The notes under the pieces are model-generated. The model did no database searches. It saw only the letters and a list, made by a program, of their open reading frames with translations, and was not told the origin of the DNA. A stretch of DNA of 64,000 nucleotides from an uncultured Holophagaceae bacterium (GTDB lineage: Bacteria; Acidobacteriota; Holophagae; Holophagales; Holophagaceae): the NCBI GenBank assembly GCA_903913215.1, contig CAIWKE010000013.1, positions 62,001 to 126,000 of the forward strand. The letters are read 5' to 3'. The first letter of the stretch is position 1. The number at the start of each line of letters is the position of its first letter. Shown here one piece after another: positions 48,794 through 62,690 of this stretch. The position numbers and the translations under genes were made by a program.

Positions 48794-49956
48794 TGACCCA
48801 CCGGCTCGGCCCCATCGAGGCCGCGCCTGGCCTCGAGCTGCTGGGGCCCCGGGGGCCCGAGATCGCCCAGCTCTTCACGCGTCCCTTCCTGGTGCTGCAC
48901 CGGGCCTCGGGACTTTACACCGCCCGCACCTGCCTCCTGCTGCTGCTGGACCTGGGTTGGGAAGCCCGCCTGCGGACAGGCACCACGCTGGACGCCCTCT
49001 GCGCGGGACTGCCGGACCAAGCCCGCAAGCCCCTGGCCTGGATGCTGCCCTTCCTGGCAGGCGAGGGCTTGCTCCAGGTCTCCAACGGCACCTACCGCAT
49101 GGAGGGGGAGCCGGATCTGGACCTGGTGAACCTTCGCGAAGCCACTGAGATAGAGGTCCCAGGCCATGGCACCAACTTCGACCTGCTGGATGGGGTCCGC
49201 TCCCACATCCAACCCTTCTTCACCGAAGGCAAGGCTGGCGAGGGGCTGCTCTTCGACCTGGCTCTGTTCCCGCTCTGGCTCTCCTACTTCCGGAACGAGA
49301 ACCTGGGCTACTTTCCCAACAACCTGCTCACCCTCCTGGCCCTGCGGGAGCGCCTGCCTGCGGGTGCTCGCGTCCTCGAGCTGGGAGGCGGCGCCGGCTC
49401 ATTCGCGCAGCTGCTGGCCCGCCAGGGTGCCGAGCAGGGCTGGCTGGGCACCATCGCCGAGTACCGCTTCACGGACATCGCGCCCACCTTCCTGCGCCGG
49501 GCGCAGCGGGAGCTGAAGCTTGCCGCGCCGGGCCTGTCCCTCAGCTTCCAGTCTCTGGATCTGAACCGGCCCCTGGGGGACCAGGGCATCGAGGCTGGCA
49601 GCCTGGACGCCATCGTGGGCGTCAATGTGCTGCACGTGGCCCAGGACCTGGAGGCCACCCTGCGGAACCTGCGCACCTGCCTGAAACCGGGCGGCTGCCT
49701 GGTGGTGGGCGAATGCCTCAAGGCCACCCTCGACACGCCCCTGTACCTGGAGTTCTTCTTCAGCTTCATCAAGAGCTTCACCGAGGTCCGCCTGGATCCC
49801 CACTGGCGACCCCGCCACGGCTTCCTCACGCCCGAAGCCTGGGAAGCCGCCCTGACCCACGCCGGATTCCAGGATCTCCTCAGCGTCCCACCCCCGCGAC
49901 CCCTCATGGATCAGCATCCAAACTTCAACGCTGGGGCCTTTTCGGCACGGGCCTAA
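48793..49956 (+). CDS. Class I SAM-dependent methyltransferase, substrate unknown
   Basis: Protein of 387 residues. The SAM motif I is VLELGGGAGSFAQLLARQGA (about 195-214) and motif II/III is LDAIVGVNVLHVAQDLEATL with CLKPGGCLVVGECLK. An N-terminal helical region of about 150 residues precedes the methylase; the layout resembles methyltransferases of polyketide/phenol type or of small-molecule pathways. The ATG overlaps the prs stop. Its stop overlaps the stop of the convergent DsbD-N-like gene by four bases. Confidence 0.82.
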   Translation: MTHRLGPIEAAPGLELLGPRGPEIAQLFTRPFLVLHRASGLYTARTCLLLLLDLGWEARLRTGTTLDALCAGLPDQARKPLAWMLPFLAGEGLLQVSNGTYRMEGEPDLDLVNLREATEIEVPGHGTNFDLLDGVRSHIQPFFTEGKAGEGLLFDLALFPLWLSYFRNENLGYFPNNLLTLLALRERLPAGARVLELGGGAGSFAQLLARQGAEQGWLGTIAEYRFTDIAPTFLRRAQRELKLAAPGLSLSFQSLDLNRPLGDQGIEAGSLDAIVGVNVLHVAQDLEATLRNLRTCLKPGGCLVVGECLKATLDTPLYLEFFFSFIKSFTEVRLDPHWRPRHGFLTPEAWEAALTHAGFQDLLSVPPPRPLMDQHPNFNAGAFSARA

Positions 49957-50357
49957 GGCATTAGGTCGGCAGCATGCACGGTCACCACGCGCCGCTGGGG
50001 CAGGAAGCAGACGCCGGCCTCCCCCTCGGTGCAGGGCTGGAAGGTCACGCGAAGCTCCACGGGATCCATCAATCCCTCGCCGCGCAGGGGCACCTCCACG
50101 GTGCCACGCCAGATGGGATCGTCCGTCTCATCATTACCAGAGGCGGGGGGCAGGGCCCCCAGGCTGAGCTGCCCCGGCGAGGACAGCAGCCCCACCTTGA
50201 AGGCCCGCACCTTGAGGTGGACACCTGCGGGGATCTCGATGCGCAGGTGGCCCTGCCGGAGTTGGATGCCCACATCCTTGGCCGGATCAAAGGCCAGGAG
50301 CCGCATCGCGAAGATGGCGGTCCAGGGGAGGATGCGCAGGTTCCGGTTAAGCCTCAT
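49953..50357 (-). CDS. DsbD N-terminal-domain-like protein (PF11412-like)
   Basis: Protein of 134 residues with an N-terminal signal-like segment (RLNRNLRILPWTAIFAMRLL). The C-terminal part VTFQPCTEGEAGVCFLPQRR (Cys109 and Cys117) matches the active-site loop of the DsbD alpha domain, which accepts and passes reducing equivalents in the periplasm. The membrane and C-terminal domains of DsbD are missing, so it is a free-standing redox module. It is the last gene of a four-gene operon (thioredoxin-DUF4266, DUF3570, ApbE); its ATG overlaps the apbE stop (ATGA). Confidence 0.75.
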   Translation of the reverse strand: MRLNRNLRILPWTAIFAMRLLAFDPAKDVGIQLRQGHLRIEIPAGVHLKVRAFKVGLLSSPGQLSLGALPPASGNDETDDPIWRGTVEVPLRGEGLMDPVELRVTFQPCTEGEAGVCFLPQRRVVTVHAADLMP

Positions 50358-51319
50358 GCGGTGGCCTCCTGGGGGCGCAGGGTGGCGATCCGGTCCATGC
50401 CACGGGTGAGCAGCAGGTCCCCGGTCTCGGTGACGAGGGCCCCTTCGACGCCGGGTCGGCTTTCGAGGAGGGCCAGCCCCTGGGCGGGTCCCAGCAGGAA
50501 GGCCGCTGTGGCCAGTTGGCCTGCGAGAAAGGCCGTGGGTGCCACCACCGTGACTGAGCGCAGGCCCCGGGCGGGCTGGCCCGTGGTGGCGTCGAGGAGG
50601 TGGTGGTAGCGCACTCCATCCTGCACAAAGCCCCGCTCATAGTCGCCGGAGGTGGCGATGCCCGCGCCTGCCTTGATGCGGATGGCCAGGAGGCAGCGTC
50701 CGGGCTGAAAGGGATCGAGCACGCCCACGGACCAGGGCTGACCATCCCCGCGGCGGCCCAGGGTGCGGACATCGCCCAGGAAGTTGATGATGGCGCTGTC
50801 CACGCCTTCGGCCGAGAGCAACTCCGCCACGCGGTCCACGGCGTATTCCTTGCCCACGCCACCCAGGTCCAGTTCCATGCCCACATTCCCCAGCGCCACG
50901 GAACCGTGCTTCAGGCTCAGGGCCCGCGCGTCCACCAGAGGCAGGAGGGCTGCCAATTCTGCTGCGGTGGGCACACGCTGGGCCTTGAAGTCCCAGGCCC
51001 GCCGCAGGATGCCCACTGTGGGATCGAAGCGCCCCGCGCTCAGGGTCCAAAGGTCCAGGGCAGCGCGGAGCAGGTGCTCCGTCTCCTCGTCCACCACCAG
51101 GGGGCCCCAGCCCGCCTGGCGGTTGATCTCGGAGAGGACACTTTCGGGCCGGTACCGGGAGAACTTGGCCTCGATGCGGCGGGCTTCGCGCTCCAGGGAC
51201 CGGGCCGTGCGCGCTGCAGCTGCCTGGCCCCGGGCATCCACGAAGCGCACCAGGGCCTCGCCCCCCATGAGCGGGAAGCGCGTGGTGTAGAGGGCCCGGG
51301 CGGGCTTCAGTAGGTCCAC
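50354..51319 (-). CDS. apbE: ApbE-family FAD:protein FMN transferase (atypical)
   Basis: Attaches FMN from FAD to Ser/Thr of exported flavoproteins in the known family. It is 321 residues. FRYRP-type N-terminal segment: EAKFSRYRPESVLSEINR; core: MELDLGGVGKEYAVDRVAELL and IINFLGDVRTLGRR; C-terminal: HLLDATTGQPARGLRSVTVV. The usual metal-site Asp in AD-x-L-A-T-A is Gly267 here (LAGQLATAAF), while Thr271 is kept. There is no signal peptide. The GTG start overlaps the DUF3570 gene by 13 bases. It is translationally coupled to a likely substrate gene. Confidence 0.88.
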   Translation of the reverse strand: MDLLKPARALYTTRFPLMGGEALVRFVDARGQAAAARTARSLEREARRIEAKFSRYRPESVLSEINRQAGWGPLVVDEETEHLLRAALDLWTLSAGRFDPTVGILRRAWDFKAQRVPTAAELAALLPLVDARALSLKHGSVALGNVGMELDLGGVGKEYAVDRVAELLSAEGVDSAIINFLGDVRTLGRRGDGQPWSVGVLDPFQPGRCLLAIRIKAGAGIATSGDYERGFVQDGVRYHHLLDATTGQPARGLRSVTVVAPTAFLAGQLATAAFLLGPAQGLALLESRPGVEGALVTETGDLLLTRGMDRIATLRPQEATA

Positions 51320-52530
51320 TTCAGACCGACTGTGAGTGTGGTGGTGTTGACGTCCGCCGCCGAGGTGCCTGGGCCGGAGTAGACGGCGGGACTATTGCTG
51401 GTGCCCGCCGTGGCTAAGGGAGTGATGGATTTCTTCCCCTGCTGGAACTGATAGGTGGCCCCCACGCTGGCAGTCCACCCCTCCGCGATCTCCGTGGAGA
51501 TCGTGAGGCCTGCCAGCAGGCTCTGCATGGCCGAGAGCCGGTAGTCCGAGGACATGAAGGGCTGGGCCGTGGCGAACTTCGGGGCATAGAAGCTGGCATC
51601 GTTCTGCGTGTAGTAGCGCAGCCGGGGCGACACGATCCAGCCATCATCCAGGCGCTGGTCGTAGGTGAAGTCCAAGGTGTGGGCCTTCAGCCCCCAGTCG
51701 TCGCTGTAATAGCGGTACGAGGTCTTCAGGGCGCCGTCCCACTCGAAGCGGTGGGCCTGCTTGAGGAGCCAGGCGTCCCGCTGCCGGGTGCCGGGCCGGT
51801 GCTCAGAAAGCGTCGTGATGCCCACGGGCACGATGAGGTAGGGCTCGTCCAGGTAGCCCTCCAGCTTCATGCGGCTGACAGAGACGTCCACCAGATCGTT
51901 CTCGCCCATGACCCAGGTCCAGCCCAGGGCCAGGCCGTGGGTTTTCTTGGCGAGATGCACGGGGCGGGTGACGGGGGAGACCGTGTCGTCGGCGTAGGAG
52001 AGGCCGTAGTGCAGGGTGCCGCGGCCCTCGAACATGGTCCAGGCATCGGAGATCCCGTATTCCTTGGAGAGGTAGTCCTTCTCTGCGGAGTGGGAGAGGT
52101 CGATGGTGGGCAGGTGCGCGCCAAAGCGACGGCTCCAGCTGATACCCTCGGCCTTGCGCTCATCCGAGTAGGGCACCATGGGCACCTTGCCCGCAGCGGT
52201 GGTGGAGCTGCCCGAAGCCCCCGTGGTGGTGGTGACGCTCAGGGTGGGATAGCCCCCGGTGGGCGAGGCCCCGGAGATGGTGTCGTGGGTGAGCAGCAGG
52301 TCCAACTGACCCCAGCTGACCCCCAAGTCCTGGTGCAGGAGCAGGGTGGGACTGAGGACCGTGGTGCGGCCATCGGACTCGCTGTAGAAAAGGGTGCGCA
52401 GCTCCACGGAGGACTGGGCCTGGAGCTGCCGTCCTCCCAGGACGCCCACACCCGCCATGAACCAGCTCAGGCCCTGGACGGAGCGCCGGTGACGGCTTCG
52501 GACGATGAGGGTGTGCTTAGTTGCAGCCAC
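51307..52530 (-). CDS. DUF3570 predicted outer-membrane beta-barrel protein with ApbE-like acceptor motif
   Basis: Protein of 407 residues. GTG 52530 is used because GGGAGG lies 5 bases upstream; it overlaps the preceding gene by 14 bases. A signal peptide ends near GGRQLQAQS. The rest alternates in short beta strands and ends WTY, a typical outer-membrane C-terminus. Residues 83-89 read D-T-I-S-G-A-S, fitting the Dxx(S/T)GA(S/T) motif to which ApbE attaches FMN. It sits between a thioredoxin-DUF4266 gene and apbE. Function unknown; electron or metal transfer across the outer membrane is a guess. Confidence 0.85.
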   Translation of the reverse strand: MAATKHTLIVRSRHRRSVQGLSWFMAGVGVLGGRQLQAQSSVELRTLFYSESDGRTTVLSPTLLLHQDLGVSWGQLDLLLTHDTISGASPTGGYPTLSVTTTTGASGSSTTAAGKVPMVPYSDERKAEGISWSRRFGAHLPTIDLSHSAEKDYLSKEYGISDAWTMFEGRGTLHYGLSYADDTVSPVTRPVHLAKKTHGLALGWTWVMGENDLVDVSVSRMKLEGYLDEPYLIVPVGITTLSEHRPGTRQRDAWLLKQAHRFEWDGALKTSYRYYSDDWGLKAHTLDFTYDQRLDDGWIVSPRLRYYTQNDASFYAPKFATAQPFMSSDYRLSAMQSLLAGLTISTEIAEGWTASVGATYQFQQGKKSITPLATAGTSNSPAVYSGPGTSAADVNTTTLTVGLKWTY

Positions 52531-53221
52531 AGCCACCTCCCGCTGCGCCGCCGTTGCCCGATGCGCCTTCCTTGCTGGCATGGATGTGCTCCCGGAACAT
52601 GCTGGTGAGCCGATCGCCATCCAGGCTCATGATGGGATCCGCCAGATGGCCCCGCTGCCAGGCCTTCAGGCTGCCCGTGGCCTGGAGCCCCGAGGCCACC
52701 CGCAGGTCCGCCCCCGGGGCGCCGCGCTTCTGGAGCAGCGCCACCACGGCCTCCTCCTCGGCCTTCAGGTGCTCGCCCCCTTCGAAGCGGGCCACGATGT
52801 TGCCCTCCTGATCGATGAGGAAGGAGGTGGGCATGGCCACCACACCATAGGTCTCGGCACTCCTGCCCGTGGTGTCCGAGAGCACCATGAATTTCACGGG
52901 GGTCCGCTCCAGGAAAGCGGTGACTGCGGACAGGTCCTCATCCAGGGACACGCCCACGGCCTGGAAACCCATGGCGCCGTAGCGACTCTGCAGCGAGTCG
53001 ATGAAGGGGAAGCTCTTGCGGCAGGGCCCGCACCAGGAGGCCCAGAAGTCCAGCAGCACCACCTTGCCCTTCAGGCTGTCCAAGGCAAAGGCTTTACCCC
53101 GCAGGTCATTGGCCTTCAGCACCGGCGCGGGCGCTCCCGCGTGGAGGACCGGTGCCGAGAGCAACAGAGGAATGACCATCAGAAAGGCCAGCCAGGGGCG
53201 GCGTGCGGTACGAGGAACCAT
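52517..53221 (-). CDS. TlpA-like thioredoxin fused to a DUF4266-like Cys-Gly-Cys-Asn tail
   Basis: Protein of 234 residues. A signal peptide or anchor (WLAFLMVIPLLLSAPVLHAG) is followed by a TlpA/ResA thioredoxin domain with WCGPC at 63-67 and cis-Pro131. Residues about 184-234 (LKAWQRGHLADPIM, then HASKEGASGNGGAAGGGCGCN) look like DUF4266, normally a separate small lipoprotein; the CGC dithiol is Cys231/Cys233. ATG 53221 is chosen because GGAG lies 5 bases upstream. It is the first gene of the redox operon, and the next gene overlaps its end. Confidence 0.82.
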   Translation of the reverse strand: MVPRTARRPWLAFLMVIPLLLSAPVLHAGAPAPVLKANDLRGKAFALDSLKGKVVLLDFWASWCGPCRKSFPFIDSLQSRYGAMGFQAVGVSLDEDLSAVTAFLERTPVKFMVLSDTTGRSAETYGVVAMPTSFLIDQEGNIVARFEGGEHLKAEEEAVVALLQKRGAPGADLRVASGLQATGSLKAWQRGHLADPIMSLDGDRLTSMFREHIHASKEGASGNGGAAGGGCGCN

Positions 53222-53471: not shown

Positions 53472-54041
53472 ATGACCCTCACCCTGCGGACCCTGCTCAT
53501 TCAACGCGCGGCGCGGCTCCAGGAGCGGCCCGCCCTCAGCGCCCCAGAGTGGGGCACCCTCAGCTACGCCCAGTTCCGCAATCGCGTGGAGGGCGTGGCG
53601 CGGGGCCTGTTGGAGGCGGAGGCTCCAGCCTCAATCTTCAGCGCCACAGGCAGCGCCTGGGACTGGGCCGCCGAGGTGGCTGCGGCGGCCACGGGCCTGA
53701 GGTGGGCAATAGATGGGGAGCGCGTACCCCCAGAGGTGTTGGGCGGCCCCCGCTTCAACGCCGAGGGCGGCCGGGGGCCCTACCATCACCGCGAGGAGCT
53801 GGTTTGTACCGACACACCCCTCACAGCAGGGCGGACCCAGGGCGAGCTCGTGCGACGCCTCCAGCGCCTCAACGACCGCCTGGGCTGGGACCACGAGACC
53901 CGGGTGGAGCTGCCCCTGGCCCAGCTCGGCGACGCGGCCCTCCGGGGCGCCCTCTGGAGCGCACTCTACGCCGGTGCCCACGCCGTACTGAACCCGGGCC
54001 CCGTGGCCTGGGACCCGGCGCCGTTCCTCGACTTGCTATAG
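53472..54041 (+). CDS. Truncated AMP-binding/acyl-CoA-synthetase-like protein
   Basis: Protein of 189 residues. The first about 50 (LLIQRAARLQERPALSAPEW, then GTLSYAQFRNRVEGVARGLL) read like the beginning of an acyl- or aryl-CoA synthetase. The ATP-binding P-loop (usually about 150 residues further) and all later motifs are missing, and the rest does not match the family. It may be a remnant or a small unrelated protein with a similar start. Its stop overlaps the convergent pssA stop by 6 bases. No strong ribosome site is seen. Confidence 0.55.
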   Translation: MTLTLRTLLIQRAARLQERPALSAPEWGTLSYAQFRNRVEGVARGLLEAEAPASIFSATGSAWDWAAEVAAAATGLRWAIDGERVPPEVLGGPRFNAEGGRGPYHHREELVCTDTPLTAGRTQGELVRRLQRLNDRLGWDHETRVELPLAQLGDAALRGALWSALYAGAHAVLNPGPVAWDPAPFLDLL

Positions 54042-61199: not shown

Positions 61200-62690
61200 C
61201 TATTTCTTGGCGACCTTGGGGGCACCCAGATCGCGGAGCACCACCTGGCCCTGGCGGGCGTAGTCGATGGCCTCGCCGAGAATGCGGGCGGCCTCCTGGG
61301 GGGCGTGGAAACCCATGGAGTTCTCGGCGTTCACGAAGTCGAGGCGCCACTGGGCCTTGCGCTGGAGTTCCAGGACGGGCGTCAGCTTGGAAGCCTCCAC
61401 GCCGGCCTGCTTGGCGGCCACGGTGTCGTTGATGAGCTGCACCACGGCATCCTCTGCGCGATCCATGAGGGCCTTGGTGCGGTCCTGGATGGCCGTCACG
61501 CGGGCCTTCAGCTCTTCTTCTGGGAAGCGGTGGCAGGTCTGGCAGGAGCGGGCCACATCCAGCAAGGGGCTGCGGACCTGGTGGCTGCTGATCTTGATGG
61601 CACCTTCCCGCACGTAGGGCATGTGGCAGTCGGCGCAGGAGACACCCGAGCGGGCGTGGACACCCTGGCTCCACATCTCGAACTCAGGGTGCTGGGCCTT
61701 GAGCACCTCGGCGCCGGTCTTCGCGTGCTGCCAATCGAAGAAACGATGACCGTCCGCGAACTTGTAGGCGTCGTAGTAGGCCTCGATCTGCTCCACCTTC
61801 AGGCCATTGTTCCAGGGGAAGAAGAGCGTGGTCTTGGGGCCGCAGTAGTACTCCACATGGCACTGGCCGCAGACCATGGACCGCAGCTCCTGCCGGGAGG
61901 CATCCCGGTTGGCGTCGTAGGGCGTGGACCGATCGCCCTTGCGCCACTTCTCGATGGAAGGCAGGTGCGGCACGGGCTCGGTGCTGTTGGCCAGGGCCAC
62001 AATGCCGCGGATGAAGCCGGGCTTGGTGACCCGCAGGCTGTTGCCCTTGGGTTCGTGGCAGTCGATGCAGGCCACGGGGTGCTTCACCAGCTTGGTGGCA
62101 TCCGCATAGGGCAGCTTGCTGATGGCTTCAAAGCCTGCCATGAGCTGGGACTGGGCGTTGGGGCTGGCAAAGGCCTCGTCCAGGCTGCCCGGGGCGCCCT
62201 TCTGGATACCCATCTCGCGGTAGGCCACGGTGTTGGAGGCATGGCAGTGCATGCAGGCGCCGGTCTGGGGCTTGGTGGTCACGCGCTTGGTGTTGCGCTG
62301 ATCCTCGAGCATGTAGGCGTGGCCCCGGCGCTGGTTGAAGTCGATGGCGAAGGCATAGCCATCGAAGATGGTCACGAGCCGGGGATCCTCCTTGAGGCGA
62401 CTGGTGGGCATGCCCTCGCTGCCGGCGCCGCCGTACTTGGTGCCATAGCGCTCAGAGGTGCGCTGATAGGCCTCGTACTGACGGGGGAAGTTCTTCCCCC
62501 ACTGGGCGGGATCGACGGTCTTCTCATCCAGGTCCACCAGCTTGAAGCTGGTCTGCCGGGCCTCGGCCTTGCGATGGGAGATGCTCGAATAGAGGGACAT
62601 CACCAGCACCGTGGCCAGGGCCGCGCCCCCGGCGATGAGGCCCATCCGAACATAGGGGCGGGAGAGCATGGGGGTCGGGTTTTCGGTCAT
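61200..62690 (-). CDS. nrfA: Pentahaem nitrite reductase (ammonia-forming), catalytic haem with CXXCH
   Basis: Reduces nitrite to ammonium. It is 496 residues with a signal anchor at about 16-36. Five haem motifs are found: CMHCH (146-150), CIDCH (208-212), CGQCH (274-278), CADCH (352-356) and CQTCH (383-387). The Tyr of CGQCHVEYY and the His of [10 protein letters not shown] fit the active site. In most NrfA the first motif is CXXCK; here the proximal Lys is His150. A few NrfA are known with CXXCH. It is coupled to nrfH upstream and napA downstream. Confidence 0.94.

Follow-up and report, generated by a model that had tools for sequence, protein, structure and literature searches.

A cytosolic-type ApbE with an altered active site accompanies an outer-membrane DUF3570 barrel in a four-gene flavin and thiol operon of Holophagaceae

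For the most part, flavinylation by ApbE has been viewed as a reaction that takes place outside the cytosol. The operon described here raises the question of how an ApbE without a signal peptide could serve a substrate in the outer membrane. It lies in the window, a stretch of 64,000 nucleotides (positions 62,001 to 126,000 of contig CAIWKE010000013.1, assembly GCA_903913215.1) from an uncultured Holophagaceae bacterium. The whole four-gene operon is carried on the minus strand, from 53221 to 49953, in the order TlpA-DUF4266, DUF3570, ApbE and a stand-alone alpha domain of DsbD (nDsbD), and all four products passed their Pfam cut-offs. An earlier note on this DNA had described such an operon with overlaps of 14, 13 and 4 bases, leaving the strand unstated. 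These overlaps were confirmed for a DUF3570 start at 52530; with a start at 52536 the first overlap is 20. Joint translation of the four genes fits the overlaps. The operon is real and well conserved, and is a distinct form of an already described system; its most unusual feature, missed by the earlier note, is a signal-less ApbE whose active site is altered.

The known kind is the "DsbD system" of Meheust et al. 2021 (eLife, PMC8238504), made up of ApbE, DUF3570, a thioredoxin-like protein and DUF4266, with DsbD present or absent; DsbD was adjacent in 285 published clusters and absent from 316. A thiol/flavin hybrid fed by DsbD was proposed by these authors, who also showed in E. coli that the ApbE of Chlorobium luteolum flavinylates the DUF3570 of the same species at two SGAS-type sites. 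In that assay the signal peptides had been removed and most of the DUF3570 was in the pellet (PMC8238504). Thus a folded membrane barrel is not needed for the reaction. The thiol and flavin reading of the earlier note was right, its flavinylation part being published, and the clustering of DUF3570, DUF4266 and ApbE genes that it mentioned for other bacteria is in the same paper. No other paper in the searched literature names DUF3570 or DUF4266. Gene clustering and the flavin on DUF3570 are already known; what is new is the clade of signal-less, altered ApbEs, the acidobacterial fusion, the dedicated nDsbD and the model of an outward-facing barrel.

The ApbE gene (50354..51319, minus strand, GTG start) matches PF02424 with an E value of 2e-76 (257.5 bits, cut-off 25.6). 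No signal peptide or lipobox was found for its product, nor any in-frame hydrophobic stretch upstream of the domain. The text of Meheust et al., as searched, is silent on a signal-less ApbE (PMC8238504). The canonical ApbE triad is Asp-Ser-His, the Asp being D285 in Vibrio cholerae and D284 in Treponema pallidum (PMC12052999). On alignment of the window protein with solved ApbEs, Ser and His were kept and the triad Asp, also a metal-site residue, was replaced by Gly; chain 4xdr (T. pallidum) has Ala at position 284 in this alignment. A Glu is gained just after the Lys of GGxxK, in "GVGKEYA", near the metal site. It adjoins the position of residue 162 of T. pallidum Ftp, which is presumably a metal contact, and given this place our hypothesis is that the gained Glu may take over from Asp as metal ligand.

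The same two changes recur widely. A residue table was drawn up for the 87 ApbEs that cover every key position; in 75 of them Glu in "GxGKEYA" goes together with Gly for the triad Asp. All but one of these Glu/Gly proteins (74/75) keep the active-site Ser, His and Thr. A plausible export signal was found in none of the 75, and in 26 of them the distance from the upstream stop codon to the domain is at most 30 residues. The Glu/Gly ApbEs form one clade (tree support 100/96). In two other Acidobacteriota clades of DUF3570 the paired ApbEs are exported and keep the Asp.

The partnership of this ApbE type with DUF3570 was followed in Chlorobium, where ApbE is single-copy where found. Every examined genome with DUF3570 (19/19) carries only the signal-less Glu/Gly ApbE, and every examined genome without DUF3570 (5/5) only a canonical exported lipoprotein ApbE; the Chlorobium ApbEs at loci L175 and L177 carry GKEY. 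Since the signal-less type is tied to DUF3570 in this genus, flavinylation before export is likely, that is, the flavin would be attached to DUF3570 in the cytosol. The Glu/Gly type is very probably active, given the demonstrated flavinylation of a Chlorobium DUF3570. NosX-type ApbEs also are without the triad Asp, so that loss of the Asp alone is no proof of inactivity. A cytoplasmic ApbE has been described from Klebsiella pneumoniae, where it flavinylates fumarate reductase (PMC12052999). Like the window protein it is signal-less, and it works in the cytoplasm; its substrate, however, remains there, whereas the substrate in the window is an exported outer-membrane barrel. Many of the Chlorobium genus genomes (G396-G426) have several DUF3570 genes, yet a single ApbE where one was found. 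A second flavinylation locus, with an ApbE keeping the Asp, is present on the minus strand of another contig of the window's genome (L069:4270-7553, G000:C32); its neighbours, read by eye, are an FMN-binding-domain-like protein, a small membrane protein and a barrel-like protein.

The predicted substrate is encoded at 51307..52536 (minus strand, GTG start at 52536 or 52530) and matches PF12094 over two stretches with a total E value of 5e-64. The model of the mature, exported protein is a barrel of 16 long strands, which on one side are joined by short turns (mean predicted local distance difference test score, pLDDT, 95.9). Its best Foldseek matches are outer-membrane barrels, among them BcsC with a template modelling (TM) score of 0.57; none of the best structural matches is a flavoprotein by title. 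The flavinylation-like motif claimed by the earlier note is DTISGAS (52264..52284, minus strand; mature residues 44-50), with Ser50 as the predicted site of flavin mononucleotide (FMN). It fits the published consensus D-x-x-[S/T]-G-A-[S/T], and flavin on a DUF3570, that of C. luteolum, is already proven (PMC8238504). D44, G48 and S50 are invariant in 15 relatives; conservation is at least 90% of 74 for D44 and G48, and for A49 and S50 it is at least 80%. A weaker second motif downstream, T-T-G-A-S, is conserved only in part.

Barrel termini are usually periplasmic. With the termini so placed, the last residue of DTISGAS, Ser50, lies at the outer tip of strand 3 in the model, and 40 of the 50 residues conserved at 80% or more sit in the upper third of the strands or in outer loops. 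The flavin site and a conserved pocket of DUF3570 are thus modelled on the outer side. Twin-arginine translocation (Tat) export was considered, as the window protein has an Arg-rich n-region, and was set aside as a general trait because twin arginines are absent in other relatives and in Chlorobium. In a different Acidobacteriota clade of DUF3570 (L048, L051, L052, L054, L056, L057) a CxxCH heme-c motif, for instance DAISAASDSCARCH, replaces the second flavinylation site. This suggests a variant of the barrel with a single flavin and a single heme. In the ApbEs read beside this clade Thr288 is changed to Lys, or to Arg in the degenerate L057 copy. DNA patterns of the CxxCH type do not exceed chance frequency in the window, and neither match is inside the operon.

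A gene-neighbourhood survey, as the earlier note had suggested, was carried out on 396 genomes of the phylum Acidobacteriota and on 80 named DUF3570 loci (L070-L149) from Pseudomonadota, Campylobacterota, Verrucomicrobiota, Chlorobiota, Eisenbacteria and others. DUF4266 occurs in 32 of the Acidobacteriota genomes, where it is adjoined by a thioredoxin (32/32), DUF3570 (31/32) and ApbE (29/32). Two of the three without an adjacent ApbE are interrupted by contig ends; the third, L053, has neither DUF3570 nor ApbE nearby. Over the 80 named loci the order thioredoxin, DUF4266, DUF3570, ApbE is near-constant; its recurrence in most of them indicates clustering far beyond chance, and the rare adjacency that would have spoken against the operon was not seen. 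The transmembrane domain of DsbD is present at 10 of the 80, and DsbD adjoins ApbE in most Chlorobium loci. The closest named loci are from uncultured Holophagaceae and Geothrix rubra. Within the window's own genus 14 of 47 genomes have DUF3570, and the operon is thus patchy there.

The window operon agrees with the published system in that ApbE, DUF3570 with an SGAS motif, a thioredoxin-like protein and DUF4266 with a CXC tail are all adjacent, and in having no adjacent transmembrane DsbD, as in the 316 published clusters. It differs in that the thioredoxin and DUF4266 are fused and only a DsbD alpha domain adjoins. The thioredoxin model of Meheust et al., PF13899, is not matched by the window protein; Redoxin/AhpC-TSA is matched instead.

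The fusion protein is a TlpA/ResA-type thioredoxin joined to DUF4266 (52517..53221, minus strand, 234 aa; Pfam Redoxin 8e-29, DUF4266 3e-21 at residues 186-234). It has a signal peptide and both of the motifs that the earlier note had read, WCGPC and a CGC tail, the latter at the end of a Gly-rich C-terminal stretch (GGGCGCN). The note had also called the fusion distinctive. It is real, and it is shared, a single reading frame for thioredoxin and DUF4266 being found in 15 of the 32 DUF4266-bearing Acidobacteriota genomes. The fusion was absent from all non-acidobacterial loci read, and is limited to Acidobacteriota within the sample. In the ApbE tree, fused operons occupy two separate places, one of 18 rows (support 100/99) and one of four, from which it follows that the fusion arose at least twice and that TlpA and DUF4266 act together. 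In the AlphaFold2 model the thioredoxin domain is confident, and the linker and tail behind it lie mostly at pLDDT of about 40-50, a part of the model informed by only eight fused rows. The C-terminal GCGC is kept in 106 of the 108 DUF4266 sequences read. A lipobox is present in 66 of 86 unfused DUF4266 proteins, and these are therefore probably membrane-anchored.

The last gene (49953..50357, minus strand, ATG start) encodes the nDsbD, which matches PF11412 (28.6 bits, cut-off 25) and nDsbD structures in the PDB (best E 0.0014). It shares with the DsbD alpha domain this match and a redox Cys pair, both Cys being invariant in nine sequences, and differs in being free-standing, without transmembrane and gamma domains. 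Its pair is C-x7-C, as against C-x5-C in E. coli DsbD. The single full-length DsbD of the genome is on another contig, so that only the alpha domain adjoins the operon. The two alpha domains are 43% identical; the operon nDsbD is a domain that was duplicated from this DsbD. High-scoring free-standing nDsbDs were found in 13 of the 14 DUF3570-bearing genomes of the genus and in none of the other 33 (Fisher p 1e-10, uncorrected for relatedness). The slot just after ApbE is the position of a whole DsbD in Kangiella, Methylomonas and Chlorobium. Thus the DsbD-N-like member, which the earlier note had also taken as distinctive, is real, but is a genus- or family-level addition in the slot that a whole DsbD occupies elsewhere.

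From these results a cytochrome-free relay from periplasmic thiols to a flavin in an outer-membrane barrel is proposed, to which we give about an even chance. While still in the cytoplasm, the DUF3570 preprotein would receive FMN from the signal-less ApbE, on Ser50 of DTISGAS and perhaps at one more site, and Sec and then the barrel assembly machinery (BAM) would deliver the loaded protein to the outer membrane, where it is modelled as a 16-strand barrel with flavin site and conserved pocket on the outer side. Reducing power would be supplied by the inner-membrane full-length DsbD encoded elsewhere in the genome, handed by the dedicated nDsbD to the thioredoxin domain, and carried to the flavin by the tethered Cys-Gly-Cys tail of DUF4266. 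The flavin would then reduce an acceptor at or beyond the cell surface. Iron-transport genes adjoin the operon in some relatives, which makes ferric iron the first candidate. In a more specific form, FMN bonded in the cytoplasm would survive Sec and BAM, sit in an outward pocket and be reduced through the barrel by the periplasmic CGC tail, making a heme-free conduit, and the acidic metal ligand of ApbE would have moved from 284 to 164 (T. pallidum numbering). This form appears somewhat unlikely as a whole. MtrCAB-type porin-cytochrome conduits use a barrel to let electrons cross the outer membrane, and the proposed relay would resemble them in function only; the window operon has a flavin and dithiols rather than hemes, and no multiheme cytochrome.

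Several observations weigh against such a relay. The FMN-bearing chain must pass Sec, and a direct precedent was not found. The conserved outer pocket could be a substrate site and not an exit for electrons, and the DUF4266 tail with its CGC could be a metal ligand. Among the 14 operon-bearing members of the genus, G205 alone is without nDsbD. The window ApbE is without the catalytic Asp, and the activity of its clade is drawn from the pattern in the Chlorobium genus, in which G424, a genome with no DUF3570 match that stands outside the five, has a short ApbE frame and may break the division of 19 against five. It could accordingly be argued that the signal-less ApbE is inactive or otherwise employed, as in flavin binding, and that DUF3570 is flavinylated by the other ApbE of the genome (G000:C32), which retains the Asp, or not at all. 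This is distinctly unlikely, as the remaining active-site residues are retained in nearly all members of the clade, the signal-less type is the sole ApbE found in each of the 19 Chlorobium DUF3570 genomes, a Chlorobium ApbE does flavinylate its partner DUF3570 (PMC8238504), NosX-type ApbEs do without the same Asp, and the flavin motif of DUF3570 is conserved.

Metal handling was also weighed, with the CGC tail as a Cu/Fe ligand, the barrel moving metal or chelate and the flavin only reducing metal during uptake. An FTR1 permease and a cupredoxin beside the operon in 4 of the 80 loci (Glaciecola, Catenovulum and one gammaproteobacterium), VIT1 in 25 published clusters (PMC8238504) and the general ability of Cys-x-Cys motifs to bind soft metals speak for it. 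The window operon, however, has no metal gene, a metal gene shared by all 80 loci was sought among the neighbours and not found, with none widely recurrent, and the thioredoxin, nDsbD and DsbD partners indicate dithiol exchange, so that we consider this reading unlikely. The copper role suggested by the earlier note gained no direct support, the link to iron being confined to the same minority of relatives. A relay in the reverse direction, in which an outside oxidant draws electrons from periplasmic thiols via the flavin and disulfides are made, would amount to an Erv-like sulfhydryl oxidase divided between two proteins; a flavin beside a mobile Cys pair does recall the Erv/ALR shuttles. DsbD and its alpha domain are reductive partners, though, and full-length DsbD adjoins the operon in several lineages, which makes this direction very unlikely.

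The data indicate that in a large class of outer-membrane flavoproteins, found in many phyla, flavinylation precedes export and involves an altered active site. The one unexpected feature is a cytosolic, altered ApbE serving an outer-membrane substrate. If the barrel does carry flavin outward, it would offer a cytochrome-free electron route across the outer membrane, here in the Geothrix group, which is known for metal reduction. The fusion and the dedicated nDsbD point to two probable partner contacts that were formerly guesses only.

Other neighbours and relatives were also recorded. At L146:7996-9837, L119, L134 and L135 the operon is adjoined by the FTR1 iron permease, the cupredoxin and an unnamed 230-aa protein. 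Among loci L070-L149 a histidine kinase (25) and an OmpR-type response regulator (23) lie near the operon, mainly in Gammaproteobacteria (e.g. L077:3274-5328), and possibly regulate it. Plasmid relatives yielded only one Bacteroidota DUF3570 with an exported ApbE, plus NosX-type ApbEs. On a plasmid of Hymenobacter sp. DG25B (L201:6118-7370) DUF3570 is annotated as two adjacent genes beside an exported ApbE, perhaps a broken or frameshifted copy. In the window itself, the divergent neighbour at 53472-54041 (plus strand, 189 aa) has a sub-cut-off match to only the first part of an AMP-binding enzyme, and is possibly a shortened or unusual ligase.

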